Shown: positions 10,599 to 15,919 of the stretch, in pieces | How positions within the stretch are numbered: position 1 is the stretch's first letter | How the letters are laid out: every line of letters starts with the position of its first letter | Assembly (NCBI RefSeq): GCF_000011085.1 | Contig: NC_006397.1 | Location: 62,001-126,000, forward strand | Reading direction: 5' to 3' | Length of the DNA: 64,000 nucleotides | Origin: Haloarcula marismortui ATCC 43049 | GTDB taxonomy: Archaea > Halobacteriota > Halobacteria > Halobacteriales > Haloarculaceae | Translations under genes and position numbers: made by a program | Notes under the pieces: model-generated | Database searches by the model: none | What the model was told of the DNA's origin: nothing | What the model saw: only the letters and a program-made list of their open reading frames with translations

Positions 10599-12131
10599 CT
10601 ATCCGAGATTAACGTTGATGGCTTTGGTCTGTGTAAATTCGTCGATAGCTTCAGCAGCGTTCTCCCGGCCGGTGCCGGACTGTTTGTAGCCGCCGAAGGG
10701 CTGGCCCGCCGACACGTCGTTGTAGTGGTTCACCCAGACGACGCCGGCTTCGAGACGCCGGGCTGTTTGGAGGGCCTTAGTCACGTCACCGGAGATGACG
10801 CCAGCGGCGAGGCCGTAGTCGACGTCGTTGGCCAGTTCGACCACGTCGTCCTCGTCACTCCAGGAGAACGTCTCCATGACGGGACCGAAGATTTCTTTCT
10901 GCACCGAGGGATGGTCGTGGTCGATATCGTCGATAACGGTCGGTTCGTAGAACGCACCGCCGGCGAGCGACTCGTCGTCGGGTGCGCTGCCGCCGGTTCG
11001 GATGGTTGCACCGCTCTCGCGGGCGGCCTCCACGAACTCGTTCGTTCGCTGGACCTGTTCGTCGGAGACTTTCGGTCCCATGTCCGTCTCTTCGAGGAGT
11101 GGGTCACCGACGGTCATGCCGGACGCGGCATTGGTGAACGTCTCGAGGAACTGCTCTTCAATATCCTCGTGAACGAACAATCGGGAGCCTGCGGCACAGC
11201 ACTCGCCTTTATTGAAGAAGATGGCCATCATCGCCGCCTCGACTGCCTCTTCGAGGTCGGCGTCAGGGTAGACGATGACGGGACTCTTTCCGCCGAGTTC
11301 GAGCGTCGTCTTCTTGATGTCCTCCGCGGAGTTGCGGATAATTTCTTTGCCGACTTCCGTCGAACCGGTAAAGGAAATCTTGGGCACGTCCTCGTGGGTC
11401 GAGAGAGGGGCGCCGGCGTCCTCACCGTAGCCGGTGACGACGTTGATGACGCCGTCTGGAACGGTGTTGTCGACGAGTTCCATCAGTTTGAGAGTGGACA
11501 GCGGCGTCTCTTCAGAGGGTTTGAGAACCACCGTGTTGCCGGCGGCGAGAGCGGGACCGCACTTCCAGATGGCGATGAGCAGCGGGAAGTTCCACGGTAC
11601 GATTGCGCCGACGACGCCGTAGGGTTCCTTGACAGTGAAGACCTGTTTCTCCCGGTCGAAGAGGTCGTTCGTCTGACGAGTTTCCCCGTTGACGTTGCGG
11701 GCGGCGGCAGCGTAGTATGTGAGGTGGTCGATGACCAGTCCCATGTCGCCCATCGCTTCGGTGATCGTCTTGCCAGTATCCAGTACTTCGAGCGTGGCGA
11801 GAGTCTTCCGGTTCTCTTCGACGGCGTGGGCCATCTCTGAGAGGACGCGCTGACGCTCTCCCGGTGAGGCGTCCTTCCACCCCCCGTCGAAGGCCTGCTG
11901 TGCAGCCTTGACTGCGTCGTCGATGTCGGCAGCGTTGCCCGCGGGCACTTCACCGAGTACCGCATCTGTCGTCGGATCCCGGGTCTCGATTGTCTTGTGG
12001 CTATTGCCAGCGACGAACTCGCCACCGATGTAGTGGGAGAGGTTGTCCGGTATCGCATCTGCAGCGGCGTCCCGATGGCGTTGTTTGATTGCACTATCCG
12101 TCTCTGTGGAATCATCACTGGCTGTACTCAT
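10599..12131 (-). CDS. Aldehyde dehydrogenase (NAD(P)-dependent, betaine-aldehyde type)
   Basis: A 510-residue ALDH. The hallmarks are PWNFPLLIAIW, NTVVLKPSEETP, FTGSTEVGK (nucleotide binding), TTLELGGKSP with the general base Glu, and FFNKGECCAAGSR with the catalytic Cys. The C-terminal PFGGYKQSGTGRE is standard. It oxidises an aldehyde to the acid in the cytoplasm. The ATG at 12131 is chosen; the longer frame upstream is AT-rich and non-coding in character, and contains an AATTATTTACTAT box about 30-40 nt before this start. It is divergent from the regulator at 12444. With the second ALDH and the amine oxidase-like protein downstream it may serve amine degradation. Confidence 0.92.
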   Translation of the reverse strand: MSTASDDSTETDSAIKQRHRDAAADAIPDNLSHYIGGEFVAGNSHKTIETRDPTTDAVLGEVPAGNAADIDDAVKAAQQAFDGGWKDASPGERQRVLSEMAHAVEENRKTLATLEVLDTGKTITEAMGDMGLVIDHLTYYAAAARNVNGETRQTNDLFDREKQVFTVKEPYGVVGAIVPWNFPLLIAIWKCGPALAAGNTVVLKPSEETPLSTLKLMELVDNTVPDGVINVVTGYGEDAGAPLSTHEDVPKISFTGSTEVGKEIIRNSAEDIKKTTLELGGKSPVIVYPDADLEEAVEAAMMAIFFNKGECCAAGSRLFVHEDIEEQFLETFTNAASGMTVGDPLLEETDMGPKVSDEQVQRTNEFVEAARESGATIRTGGSAPDDESLAGGAFYEPTVIDDIDHDHPSVQKEIFGPVMETFSWSDEDDVVELANDVDYGLAAGVISGDVTKALQTARRLEAGVVWVNHYNDVSAGQPFGGYKQSGTGRENAAEAIDEFTQTKAINVNLG

Positions 12132-12443
12132 ACTGGGCCAGTAACAATATTTGTCACGCGATAGTAAATAATTAGTTGATATTATATTATACTTCATTAC
12201 TATACAGCACAATATATGAGAGTGTAATATTACGATACTGGTCAGTGAATTGTATAATCACGCTATCTGGGGTGACGAGTGGTACGTTGGTCGATATAGC
12301 ATATCCGAATCCCGCCAATGAAGGACCGCTGGCTGCGGGAAACAAGGACTGAATATGTCTTATATTTCCAACATTTGCGGCCATAGCATAGTTGGAGAAC
12401 ACTTATTGCGATTGCGAACCCAAACTGGAACGAACAGAACACA

Positions 12444-13040
12444 ATGATCAACGGGAACGATTTCGAGTTCGATCTCTCACCCCGCGATGTGGCTATTCTC
12501 AAGGCTAGAGTGAAATATCCCGAGAAACCTGCCAGTAAACTTCGTGATATCTTGGAAGAAGAGTTTGATATCTCACTCTCTCACAATCGCGTGAACGAGA
12601 TCCTAAACGAGATGCGCGACGAGGATGTGTTCTCGATGCGTGCAATCCCAAATCAGAACATCTTCGAATACTATATCTTTCAGGTTGCCTTTCATTATTC
12701 GAATTTTGATGAGAACTGGGAGCGTTGCTACAAACGATTGCTCGACGACCCGCACGTGATGTTCTTTGCCAGCGCGGACGACTACCACGAGTGGCAGTTC
12801 ATCGCGCAATTCGCATCACCAGAGCAGAGTGAGGCGTGGCGTCACGACTTCGTCAGGGAGTACGGCGACTTCATCGCACAGATAGACAAAACGGCATTCC
12901 CGACGGTCCATAAGTTCGAGACGGCAGCAGCTGTCTTCAACGACCTGCTGCGAGATATGGGCGGTGAGGAGTATCTTGGGGACGGAGAGCAGGAGACTGG
13001 CGAGCATGAGGAGACTGACCGCGTCTCGGTAAATCAGTAA
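12444..13040 (+). CDS. Winged-helix regulator next to the aldehyde dehydrogenases
   Basis: A 198-residue protein. The N-terminal 65 residues form a helix-turn-helix (DVAILKARVKYPEKPASKLRDILEEEF, then SHNRVNEILNEMR). The rest is an alpha/beta domain with FHYSNFDENWERCYKRLL and an acidic tail. A ligand-binding role for the second domain is likely but no known domain was recognised. It stands divergent to the ALDH at 10599-12131 and upstream of the ALDH at 14399, from which an IS now separates it. It probably controls these genes. Confidence 0.7.
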   Translation: MINGNDFEFDLSPRDVAILKARVKYPEKPASKLRDILEEEFDISLSHNRVNEILNEMRDEDVFSMRAIPNQNIFEYYIFQVAFHYSNFDENWERCYKRLLDDPHVMFFASADDYHEWQFIAQFASPEQSEAWRHDFVREYGDFIAQIDKTAFPTVHKFETAAAVFNDLLRDMGGEEYLGDGEQETGEHEETDRVSVNQ

Positions 13041-13103
13041 ACTATCCCACCGGCTCTGTTGAAACCCTCAGGGAGTTACATATTCGTCCTGTAATTCCAC
13101 GAG

Positions 13104-13925
13104 ATGAAGGTCCTCCCGAAGTCGCAGATTCTCCGGTTTACTGAGAAGGCAATCCATCTGGCACGGCGAGCGGTCTCTCGATACTCCTCGAAATTCTCCA
13201 ACCATCGCTACACACTTCCCCAGCACGTTGTTTTACTGTGTCTCAAAGTCCGGAAGAACACGACCTACCGTGGCCTGCTTGACGAATTAATCGAGATGCC
13301 ACGCATTCGTCACGCTCTCGGGCTATCCGAACTTCCTACGCCATCAACGCTTTGTAAGGCGTTCAGTCGGCTTGATATGGCAGTGTGGCGTGTTATATTG
13401 ACTCTCTCAGCCACGCTACTTCCGACGAGCGGCATTGTTGGAGTTGATGCATCAGGATTTGACCGCAGTCACGCCTCGAAACACTACACGAAACGCGCTG
13501 AACTCACGATTCAGCAGCTCAAAGTGACACTGCTGGCCGATGCGAAGGTGAACGCAATCCTTGATCTCCACGTGACAACGACACGAAAACACGATAGCCA
13601 GATTGCACCGTCGTTGATCAAACGCAATCCCGATGATATTGATATTCTGCTTGGTGACAAAGGGTACGACGACCAGAAGATCAGACGACTTGCCCGTTAC
13701 CACGAGGTTCGACCACTGATCAAGCATCGTGAGTCCACATCGCTCCACAAGGCATGGAACGCGCGCTTAGACGCCAATCTCTACGGTCAGCGGAGTCAAT
13801 CTGAGACTGTGAACTCCACGCTCAAGCGGAAGTACGGTGCGTTCGTCCGATCACGACGCTGGTGGAAACAGTTCCGTGAACTCACTATCGCCTGTCTCGT
13901 TCATAATGTAGACCGGTCACTCTGA
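13104..13925 (+). CDS. IS5-family transposase
   Basis: A 273-residue DDE transposase. Catalytic candidates are Asp in GIVGVDASGFDR (near residue 116), Asp in DILLGDKGYDDQ (near 192) and Glu in QRSQSETVNSTLKRKYG (near 240), with the YREK-like Y...R..K spacing after the Glu. The length is normal and the frame is intact, so the element may be active. Confidence 0.9.
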   Translation: MKVLPKSQILRFTEKAIHLARRAVSRYSSKFSNHRYTLPQHVVLLCLKVRKNTTYRGLLDELIEMPRIRHALGLSELPTPSTLCKAFSRLDMAVWRVILTLSATLLPTSGIVGVDASGFDRSHASKHYTKRAELTIQQLKVTLLADAKVNAILDLHVTTTRKHDSQIAPSLIKRNPDDIDILLGDKGYDDQKIRRLARYHEVRPLIKHRESTSLHKAWNARLDANLYGQRSQSETVNSTLKRKYGAFVRSRRWWKQFRELTIACLVHNVDRSL

Positions 13926-13939
13926 GTGGTCAAGACAGG

Positions 13940-14149
13940 TCAGCCCATGAATGATACTAATATGCCGATAACTGCACAAAGTGCCCCTAATCCCTGAAAG
14001 AACATCTTCCCACTATCGGACATAGAATCTTCATCAACCGCCCCGAAGAACCAAAATCGAATGGTTGCTTCGGGCCAAATTGCGCCGGTGATACCAACTA
14101 TAAACAGCAAGAACCCTGCGATTGCACTCATGTTGTTGTCTGCCCTCAA
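13940..14149 (-). CDS. Passenger membrane protein inside the IS
   Basis: A 69-residue protein with two membrane helices (about residues 8-26 and 50-67) joined by a short acidic loop (FFGAVDEDSMSDSGK). It lies inside the inverted repeats of the IS, convergent to the transposase with a 14-bp gap. IS5 elements usually carry only the transposase, so this is cargo. The composition is haloarchaeal. The function is unknown; an N-terminal MRAD extension may not be translated, with MSAIAGF the other start. Confidence 0.6.
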   Translation of the reverse strand: MRADNNMSAIAGFLLFIVGITGAIWPEATIRFWFFGAVDEDSMSDSGKMFFQGLGALCAVIGILVSFMG

Positions 14150-14398
14150 ACTAATAATAAGCCTTGTGACGGCTAATTTGCAGGCTTCAGCGAGCGACTG
14201 TTTCGTGTATGAATATATCTGAATAATAGGATTTCAACAGAGCCATCCCACCCTATTCGCTTGTGCTTCTGCCGGGGTCGGAAGGCAGGCGCTGGTCAAG
14301 CGTGGCACCTCCGCCTTGATTTAGGTGAACGCTTATTTCGGTTGCTTACGCAGTGTGCGTAGAGACACCAGTGAACAAGGTGTGTCAGTAGGGTTAGG

Positions 14399-15919
14399 AT
14401 GACATCTCATTCAGAGATCGACACACTGCGAATCAAGGCCCGGCACGCGGAGCTTGCTGAATCGCTACTCCCGTCGGGACCACTCAAACACTTCGTCGAT
14501 GGCGAGTGGATTACTGGACGTGGCGACGACACGTTTCAGTCCATAGATCCGACGACGGGTGAGTCGCTGGTGGGCGTCTACGAGGGGACCAAAGAGGAAG
14601 TCAACAGAGCGGTCGATGCCGCCTGGGAAGCATACGAGCAACGCTGGTCAGAGACCACGCCGGCGGAGAGACAGCAGTTGCTCCTGACAATGGCCGACCG
14701 GCTCGAAGCACGCGCCGAGGACTTCGCGCTTATCGAGGTACTCGACAACGGGAAACCAATTACTGAGGCTCGCGAGGACATCGAACTCGCCGTCGACCAC
14801 TTCCGATACTTCGCCGGTGCCGCTCGAAATATCGAAGGAAAAACCGTCCCACACAAGGAGTTACACATCCAGACCCGACGAGAACCCTACGGCGTCGTCG
14901 GACAGGTCGTCCCCTGGAACTTCCCGCTGTTGCTTGCCACCTGGAAACTCGCGCCGGCACTCGCCGCCGGCAACACGGTCGTCCTCAAACCAGCCGAGCA
15001 GACACCGATTTCACTGCTTACGTACATGCGCGAGATTGCGGACGTGTTACCAGACGGCGTCGTCAATGTCGTCACCGGATTCGGTCCCGAGACAGGTGCG
15101 CCGCTGGTCTCTCATGAGCGCGTTCCAAAGGTGGCTTTCACCGGCTCGACGGAAGTGGGACAGGGCGTGATGAAAGCCGCCGCGAACACGATTAGTGACA
15201 TCACGCTCGAACTCGGCGGGAAGAGTCCACTCATCGTTGCGCCGGACGCAGACCCGGCAGAGGCAGCGGACATCGCTGTTGACGCGATGTTTTTCAACGG
15301 CGGCGAGTGCTGTAGTGCCGGGACACGACTGTTCATCCACGAGAGCATCGCAGACGAGTTCGTCGACGCGTTTCTCGACGCCGTTGGCAAACTCCAAATG
15401 GGCGACCCGCTTGAGGAATCCACCGACATCGGCCCACAGGTCAGCCGTGCAGAAGTCGAAAAGACGCTGCACTACATCGGCCTCGCCAGGGACTCAGACG
15501 CAAGCATCCTCCGGGGCGGTGGCACTGTTGAGGAGGGAATCCTCGCTGAGGGCTGTTTCGTCGAACCGACTGTCATCGCGGACGTCGGCGCCGACAGCAC
15601 CGTCGCGACACAGGAGATTTTCGGACCCGTCGAGATCATGCTTGAGTGGGACGGTTACGACGAGATGGTCGCACGCGCGAACAACGTGGACTACGGCCTT
15701 GCTGCCGGTGTGGTGACCGACGACCTCTCCTTCGCCCACCGCATCGCCGAGGACATTATGGCCGGCAACATTTGGGTCAACACGTTCAACCGTCTGCCGG
15801 CAGGCCAGCCCTTCGGCGGCTACAAGCAATCCGGAATCGGTCGAGAAGGAGCGATGGAGACGCTTCGGGAGTATACCCAGACGAAATCCATAACGATGAA
15901 CCTGGGCGATGGTCAGTAG
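14399..15919 (+). CDS. Aldehyde dehydrogenase
   Basis: A 506-residue ALDH with VVPWNFPLLLATW, NTVVLKPAEQTP, FTGSTEVGQ, DITLELGGKSP (general base Glu) and FFNGGECCSAGTR (catalytic Cys). It is clearly a paralogue of the enzyme at 10599-12131 but not a recent duplicate. Its stop overlaps the end of the convergent amine oxidase-like gene by 7 nt. It probably oxidises the aldehyde made from an amine or alcohol by a neighbouring enzyme. Confidence 0.92.
   Translation: MTSHSEIDTLRIKARHAELAESLLPSGPLKHFVDGEWITGRGDDTFQSIDPTTGESLVGVYEGTKEEVNRAVDAAWEAYEQRWSETTPAERQQLLLTMADRLEARAEDFALIEVLDNGKPITEAREDIELAVDHFRYFAGAARNIEGKTVPHKELHIQTRREPYGVVGQVVPWNFPLLLATWKLAPALAAGNTVVLKPAEQTPISLLTYMREIADVLPDGVVNVVTGFGPETGAPLVSHERVPKVAFTGSTEVGQGVMKAAANTISDITLELGGKSPLIVAPDADPAEAADIAVDAMFFNGGECCSAGTRLFIHESIADEFVDAFLDAVGKLQMGDPLEESTDIGPQVSRAEVEKTLHYIGLARDSDASILRGGGTVEEGILAEGCFVEPTVIADVGADSTVATQEIFGPVEIMLEWDGYDEMVARANNVDYGLAAGVVTDDLSFAHRIAEDIMAGNIWVNTFNRLPAGQPFGGYKQSGIGREGAMETLREYTQTKSITMNLGDGQ

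Follow-up and report, generated by a model that had tools for sequence, protein, structure and literature searches.

A putative transporter insertion sequence with a membrane-protein passenger gene in Haloarcula marismortui and its cargo-bearing haloarchaeal relatives

The modular system that we take to be nearest to the elements described here is IS231/MIC231 of Bacillus cereus, which is bacterial and belongs to the IS4 family; the haloarchaeal clade, in contrast, belongs to the IS5 family, and its studied bounded elements keep the transposase. Haloarchaea are thought to exchange genes readily across genera by carriers that are poorly known. A gene shuttle could hardly be simpler than an element of 1-5 kb with one transposase that routinely bears a different gene; such an element could explain many scattered small membrane-protein and lipoprotein genes. 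Transporter insertion sequences (IS) carry passenger genes unrelated to transposition, and according to PMC3129680 such copies blur the frontier between IS and transposon; the term tIS is given in a second paper (PMC7986276), with one single-copy example from the IS6 family. The element described here resembles a transporter IS in that a passenger unrelated to transposition lies inside its ends, and differs in that extra DNA is the rule in its archaeal clade (68 of 68 bounded elements), with cargo that is nearly always different.

Two named elements, ISHla2 and ISHxa2, belong to the same transposase clade, with 86.7% and 87.8% DNA identity to the element over its first 875 and 886 bp, respectively. 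ISHla2 also has the same length and a 57-aa passenger of its own, whereas its pocket sequence is unrelated; no duplication-bounded ISHxa2 element was present in the sampled copies. Neither name was found in the searched open-licence papers, and no description of cargo carried by IS5 elements of haloarchaea was found in the open-licence literature, searched by titles and the beginnings of abstracts and outside the main IS reviews and ISfinder.

The element in the window and its insertion site

An IS of 1193 bp was located at positions 13052-14244 of the window (the whole stretch of DNA analysed, 64,000 nucleotides of Haloarcula marismortui ATCC 43049). It had been predicted to be an intact IS5-type element, and this was borne out by its inverted repeats, which match at 16 of 17 positions and are identical over the outermost 13, by an 8-bp target-site duplication, and by an open transposase without internal stop that scored above the cut-off (140 bits) of NCBIfam model NF033579 (transpos_IS5_2; Table 1). 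The predicted ISH1 label, for which an 8-bp duplication is one criterion, is a possible one. In the transposase, YGQRSQSETVNSTLK was read by eye as the Y-R-E-K signature of the DDE catalytic residues, which we take to be characteristic of the IS5 family, and both the match to the family model and the combination of DDE with Y-R-E-K place the transposase in that family.

Table 1. Features of the element in the window and transposase-less segments at related loci (positions refer to the window unless a locus is named)
Feature	Location	Strand	Basis
Target-site duplication, left copy (ATCCCACC)	13044-13051		repeat of right copy
Left inverted repeat	13052-13068	+	outer 13 identical to right end
IS5-family transposase, 273 aa, uninterrupted	13104-13925	+	NF033579, 211 bits; Pfam DDE_Tnp_1
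Tail past transposase stop (GTGGTCAAGACAG), left border of cargo pocket	13926-13938	+	similar tails elsewhere
Passenger gene, two-helix membrane protein, 63 aa from probable ATG start	13940-14131	-	ORF, homologues, dN/dS
TATA-like TTATTATTA upstream of passenger, tentative	14152-14160	-	by eye
Right-end module, about 65 bp, common to relatives, including inverted repeat 14228-14244	14180-14244	+	sequence comparison
Target-site duplication, right copy (ATCCCACC)	14245-14252		repeat of left copy
Transposase-less candidate segment	L118, 7780-7904		IS ends, perfect 8-bp duplication
Transposase-less candidate segment	L232, 7109-7410		IS ends, perfect 8-bp duplication
Transposase-less candidate segment	L074, 5935-6288		IS ends, perfect 8-bp duplication
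Transposase-less candidate segment	L070, 2836-3233		IS ends, perfect 8-bp duplication
Transposase-less candidate segment	L050, 8979-9625		IS ends, perfect 8-bp duplication
Transposase-less candidate segment	L083, 564-1447		IS ends, perfect 8-bp duplication

With its own transposase and an unrelated gene inside one pair of ends and one duplication, the element can be assigned by its structure to the transporter ISs, a known kind. A mobile insertion cassette is without its own transposase and a compound transposon has its cargo flanked by two IS copies. Either of these, rather than an IS with a passenger of its own, is next to inconceivable for the window element: a relative (L094) is a compound of two ISs, and six transposase-less segments have the same ends and perfect duplications, but the window element has one intact transposase, one left end and one right end, and the source genome (4.27 Mb, 9 contigs) contains a single full copy of the IS.

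The insertion site was compared with those of 31 other genomes of the genus. In two of them (G029 and G035), the genes on either side follow each other directly without the IS; in the others, nothing closely matching the left flank was obtained. In G029 and G035, both sister species, the upstream 198-aa gene adjoins the downstream gene (aldehyde-dehydrogenase-like by eye), and about 93 bp around the target are missing as well; the two sites therefore represent IS-free loci and not the exact pre-insertion site. Since the IS is absent between the same genes in two sister species, it was probably added in the lineage of the window. The search of sister strains for an empty site thus yielded loci free of the IS but no exact empty site, and the recent insertion proposed in the original prediction is plausible in view of the perfect duplication and this absence. 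The stretch of about 93 bp (13042-13051 plus 14245-14327) partly matches four other Haloarcula genomes (79-89%), and may be an older small repeat that was entered by the IS. In the window, two aldehyde-dehydrogenase-like genes (by eye; 10599-12212 on the minus strand and 14399-15919 on the plus strand) diverge around the IS and a small gene (12444-13040), and DNA matching both of them also flanks the small gene in both sister species.

The passenger gene

The predicted antisense two-helix frame inside the ends was found as a 69-aa ORF (13940-14149, minus strand) that begins with TTG at 14149 and contains two hydrophobic segments. The shorter reading of 63 aa is preferred because the homologues at L278, L005, L006 and L008 have Met at the position of the ATG at 14131, which is probably the start. 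The original prediction of a passenger was thus right as to the two-helix frame, judged to be a real gene, and probably too long by its first six residues.

An ordinary IS with a long non-coding tail, in which the 69-aa frame is a chance ORF, would agree with the lack of any Pfam or NCBIfam match to the passenger up to E = 1, with a length test that is marginal and weak alone (when the pocket was shuffled 100 times by dinucleotides, 3 shuffles gave a frame at least as long; p = 0.04), and with the ORF-length test across the family, which only 6 of 20 short pockets pass. It is contradicted by homologues (E <= 0.001) in 14 of the 391 genomes of the class, that is, in 13 besides its own, and by the comparison with the nearest relative (L278; 77% identical over 63 residues), which gave dN/dS of 0.17 at dS of 0.86 with differences concentrated at third positions (12, 8 and 22 at codon positions 1, 2 and 3). 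It is further contradicted by the sister IS family described below, which is without such a tail, and by the many other pockets with unmistakable genes. The chance-ORF explanation, very improbable on these grounds, was rejected because the frame is conserved in the homologues; it is this conservation, in dN/dS and in spread, on which the passenger is judged to be a genuine gene. The values of dN/dS against L005 and L008 were 0.14 and 0.20 at dS of about 1.7, and the substitution pattern as a whole indicates purifying selection on the passenger in the window. Other copies without a conserved frame had been named as a sign of chance; the relative in genome G311 keeps the frame.

This relative (L278) comes from another genus and another taxonomic family (the genus of G311 includes Halorubrum records). 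Its passenger runs on into an IS right end like that of the window element, the two being 75% identical over 316 bp, and no transposase match was obtained in the 3.2-kb locus. Judged from these matches, the locus appears to be a passenger-bearing IS that has decayed. Among the 14 other passenger loci (L278-L291), the transposase-tail motif lies one base past the passenger stop in five (L278-L281 and L284) and is absent in nine, and tails similar to GTGGTCAAGACAG are also present in relatives with unrelated cargo. The passenger has probably long been carried as cargo of such elements, in several genera.

At L005 (1000-2100), a Haloarcula homologue of the passenger lies between repeated gene-sized units that end, by eye, in GGTCAGTACA, the same motif as in the transposase tail, followed by differing sequence. 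An Rfam search gave no match. A promoter and terminator scan gave 3 and 2 sites against 1.1 and 1.0 in shuffles, with models that are bacterial and a host that is archaeal.

Modules and cargo of the related elements

A transposase match at 1e-60 was obtained in 205 of the 391 genomes of the class, sister families included. Relatives were taken from the best 80 of 227 encoded loci of a scan of genome contigs, from 80 further regions and from earlier loci; matches not spanning transposase residues 15-255 and identical contexts were removed before counting. The resulting sample comprised 148 distinct, near full-length haloarchaeal transposase copies, two of which are sister-family transposases (40-45% identical). 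Three duplicate elements, four copies without a left end and 73 copies without a duplication partner were set aside, the last being attributed to contig ends, decay and recombination, and including the two sister-family transposases. The copy at L027 (48.8% identical in transposase) and the second IS of L094 also fall outside the final set. A pattern search of viral contigs found no relative.

The 68 unique elements bounded by both ends and a duplication have transposases 71-100% identical to that of the window and lengths of 1071-5124 bp, and the duplications are perfect 8-mers in 67. Each has extra DNA between the transposase and the right end; no empty bounded element occurred among the 68, and the smallest pocket measured 136 bp. 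The statement of the original prediction that IS5 elements rarely carry extra genes accordingly fails in this clade. By eye, the pocket has sharp borders, one about 14 bp past the transposase stop codon and the other about 65 bp inside the right tip. Pocket lengths were measured by script with the tail included, and those of L107, L045, L178 and L193 are too long by a few to some tens of bases because the transposase alignment stops early. Median identity across the bounded elements was 78% for the transposase halves and 58% for the last 75 bp. The DNA between these modules sorts into 60 groups and is unrelated in 151 of the 154 pairs whose transposase halves reach 90% identity; among the chosen ORFs of 64 elements, 62 protein groups were formed (E 1e-3), near-duplicates (L134, L194, L197 and L094) being excluded from the ORF and protein-group tests. 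By this comparison, the haloarchaeal clade, including ISHla2 and ISHxa2, can be described as consisting of three modules, namely the left end with the transposase, a cargo pocket and a right end of about 65 bp. Members of the family appear to take up genes, exchange them and carry them from one species to another.

A sister IS family with similar 13-bp tips and a transposase about 42% identical in protein served as a control. Its right end lies 35 bp past the transposase in all 28 loci with room (30 fetched); among these 28, 13 elements of 940 bp and one of 1030 bp have a perfect duplication, the remainder having none or a mismatched one. The pocket is therefore a trait of the window element's clade and not of such ends generally. 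An origin of the type B right ends (L233, L138, L194 and others) from the sister family was considered and rejected, as they are by eye unlike beyond the 13-bp tip. In one sister-family locus (L250), a wider pair of ends with a perfect duplication (1075 bp) encloses the 940-bp element, which is probably one IS inside a small repeat.

For Pfam searches, 65 cargo ORFs were picked by hand, as a rule the longest, with a shorter ORF for L183, L120, L138 and L109 and the L120 query cut at 100 residues; the pockets of L107, L089 and L202 lay outside the scan. In 17 named elements, the cargo matched Pfam families other than transposases: acetyltransferase (L149), low-molecular-weight phosphatase family (L172), methyltransferases (L213 and L105), PLP enzyme (L211), FMN_dh family (L203), dihydroxy-acid dehydratase family (L079), PAS histidine kinase (L207), thioredoxin (L183), SnoaL (L120), DUF7344 (L020), BAT and DUF7344 (L104), hydrolase and HTH_10 (L111), binding protein and oxidoreductase (L212), MATE and CNNM/CorC (L071), pilin with PKD (L235), and DUF6498 (L193). 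In a batch of 34 ORFs, eight Pfam families with one member each were matched, two being IS66 and most others weak; PADLOC gave no match among 34 cargo ORFs, and PHROGs gave three families, two of them transposases. Many further cargos are short membrane proteins, or frames that by eye resemble lipoproteins, without a family, other ISs lie inside three pockets (L178, L184 and L094), and the 141-bp pocket of L107 appears non-coding.

Of 64 pockets, 42 have a longest ORF that exceeds those of 95% of shuffles, as do the 6 already given of the 20 pockets below 450 bp; the frames of small pockets are candidate genes, for which coding is supported only where conservation exists. Cargo dN/dS was 0.15 (L045 against L027), 0.13 and 0.35 (two frames, L095 against L197), 0.42 (L200 against L194) and 0.44 (L078 against L134), each from few changes. 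The pocket as a fast-evolving non-coding tail was ruled out by the unrelated, recognisable genes and by the sister family without a pocket. An internal inverted repeat around the pocket was left as a hint: complementary runs at the borders (left CGGTCRAT or CGTTAG, right the complement) had means of 4.71, 4.39 and 4.40, barely above the controls (3.83-3.92), and in clades 0 and 2, though not in clade 1, runs of at least 6 complementary bases were more frequent than with random cargo as control.

Because unrelated genes occupy the same slot, the passenger most likely serves the host or the persistence of the element rather than transposition. A passenger that aids the element itself, for example by damping transposition or by membrane anchoring, would fit the recurrence of short two-helix membrane proteins in the smallest pockets and the lack of an empty bounded element, but the slot elsewhere holds enzymes, a kinase, lipoprotein-like frames and transporters, and the passenger persists at L278 where the transposase is gone, which makes such a role quite improbable.

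Movement, acquisition and exchange of cargo

We regard with high confidence as the best explanation of the whole that the window element is a transporter IS of a three-module clade, in which cargo would be gained by end-skipping and module reshuffling and the passenger most likely serves the host or persistence. The transposase would move everything from the left end through the right end beyond the cargo gene as a single unit. New cargo would be gained when the transposase bypasses its own near right end in favour of a compatible end farther away, which may belong to another copy, to a relic or to a related IS; the bypassed end would then decay, homologous recombination would reshuffle modules between elements, and decayed copies would leave their passengers behind. 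The near-end relics and the one-cargo, two-cargo and compound elements form a natural series for testing the path from IS to transposon.

Movement of cargo as a whole unit is shown, at the level of sequence comparison, by relatives. An ISHla2-type element of 1193 bp is present in nine copies (L156-L160, L162-L164 and L167), spread over three genomes that belong to different genera. The copies are 99.8-100% identical, with the 57-aa frame identical in all nine, which points to recent transfer between genera. The 8-bp duplication is present in only one of the nine (L160), and because the halves of one duplication (AAGTCAAG) are divided between L158 and L159, recombination or rearrangement between copies is indicated. 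Likewise, L205 (1304 bp) and L094 (2252 bp) do not differ in transposase or cargo, and each has its own perfect duplication, L094 being the L205 element plus a second IS within a single outer duplication. For the window element, only the transposase-less L278 carries the same passenger and right end.

Acquisition by end-skipping is suggested mainly by the anatomy of L233, L071 and L094. In L233, a nearly intact right end lies 79 bp past the transposase and is followed by cargo and by the right end adjoining the duplication; in L071, whose inner right end is also well preserved, the order is transposase, MATE gene, inner right end, CorC-like gene and right end. A degraded right end near the transposase was seen by eye in L140, L150, L100 and L104. 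Relics of skipped near ends were recognised by eye in 5 of the 142 copies with room, and a loose match to the tip (up to 4 mismatches, within 150 bp of the transposase) was obtained in 27 of the 142. Inner right ends in the expected orientation were found in 7 of the 68 pockets, against one reversed (52.1 kb), and right-end pieces were found in four of the 300-bp flanks (40.6 kb; three in the same orientation, one reversed); reversed pockets gave none. Since the density in pockets is not clearly above the flank background, the counts alone are no proof of the end-skipping route.

Two pairs of mosaic elements suggest module exchange, namely L078/L134 (cargo 95.6% and transposase 87.5% identical) and L194/L200 (93.3% and 87.2%). 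These pairs, together with the fewness of near-end relics and the density of inner right ends just given, also favour a different emphasis, in which cargo diversity comes mainly from homologous recombination between co-resident elements, with crossovers in the transposase and the right end, and capture by end-skipping is rare. Recombination, however, reshuffles existing cargo and cannot alone yield 60 unrelated cargos, and growth in two steps is visible in L071 and L094; we consider this emphasis possible, if somewhat doubtful. The combination of end-skipping with reshuffling remains our preferred reading. Its extension, in which the pocket is a dedicated cargo-exchange site and the element a minimal shuttle that needs a filled pocket to persist and is lost when empty, has moved very many small host genes (for membrane proteins, lipoproteins, enzymes and transporters) among genera and leaves passengers when its transposase decays, is speculative and on balance unlikely.

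The six segments of Table 1 that have such IS ends and a perfect 8-bp duplication but no transposase are candidate MITEs or mobile cassettes.
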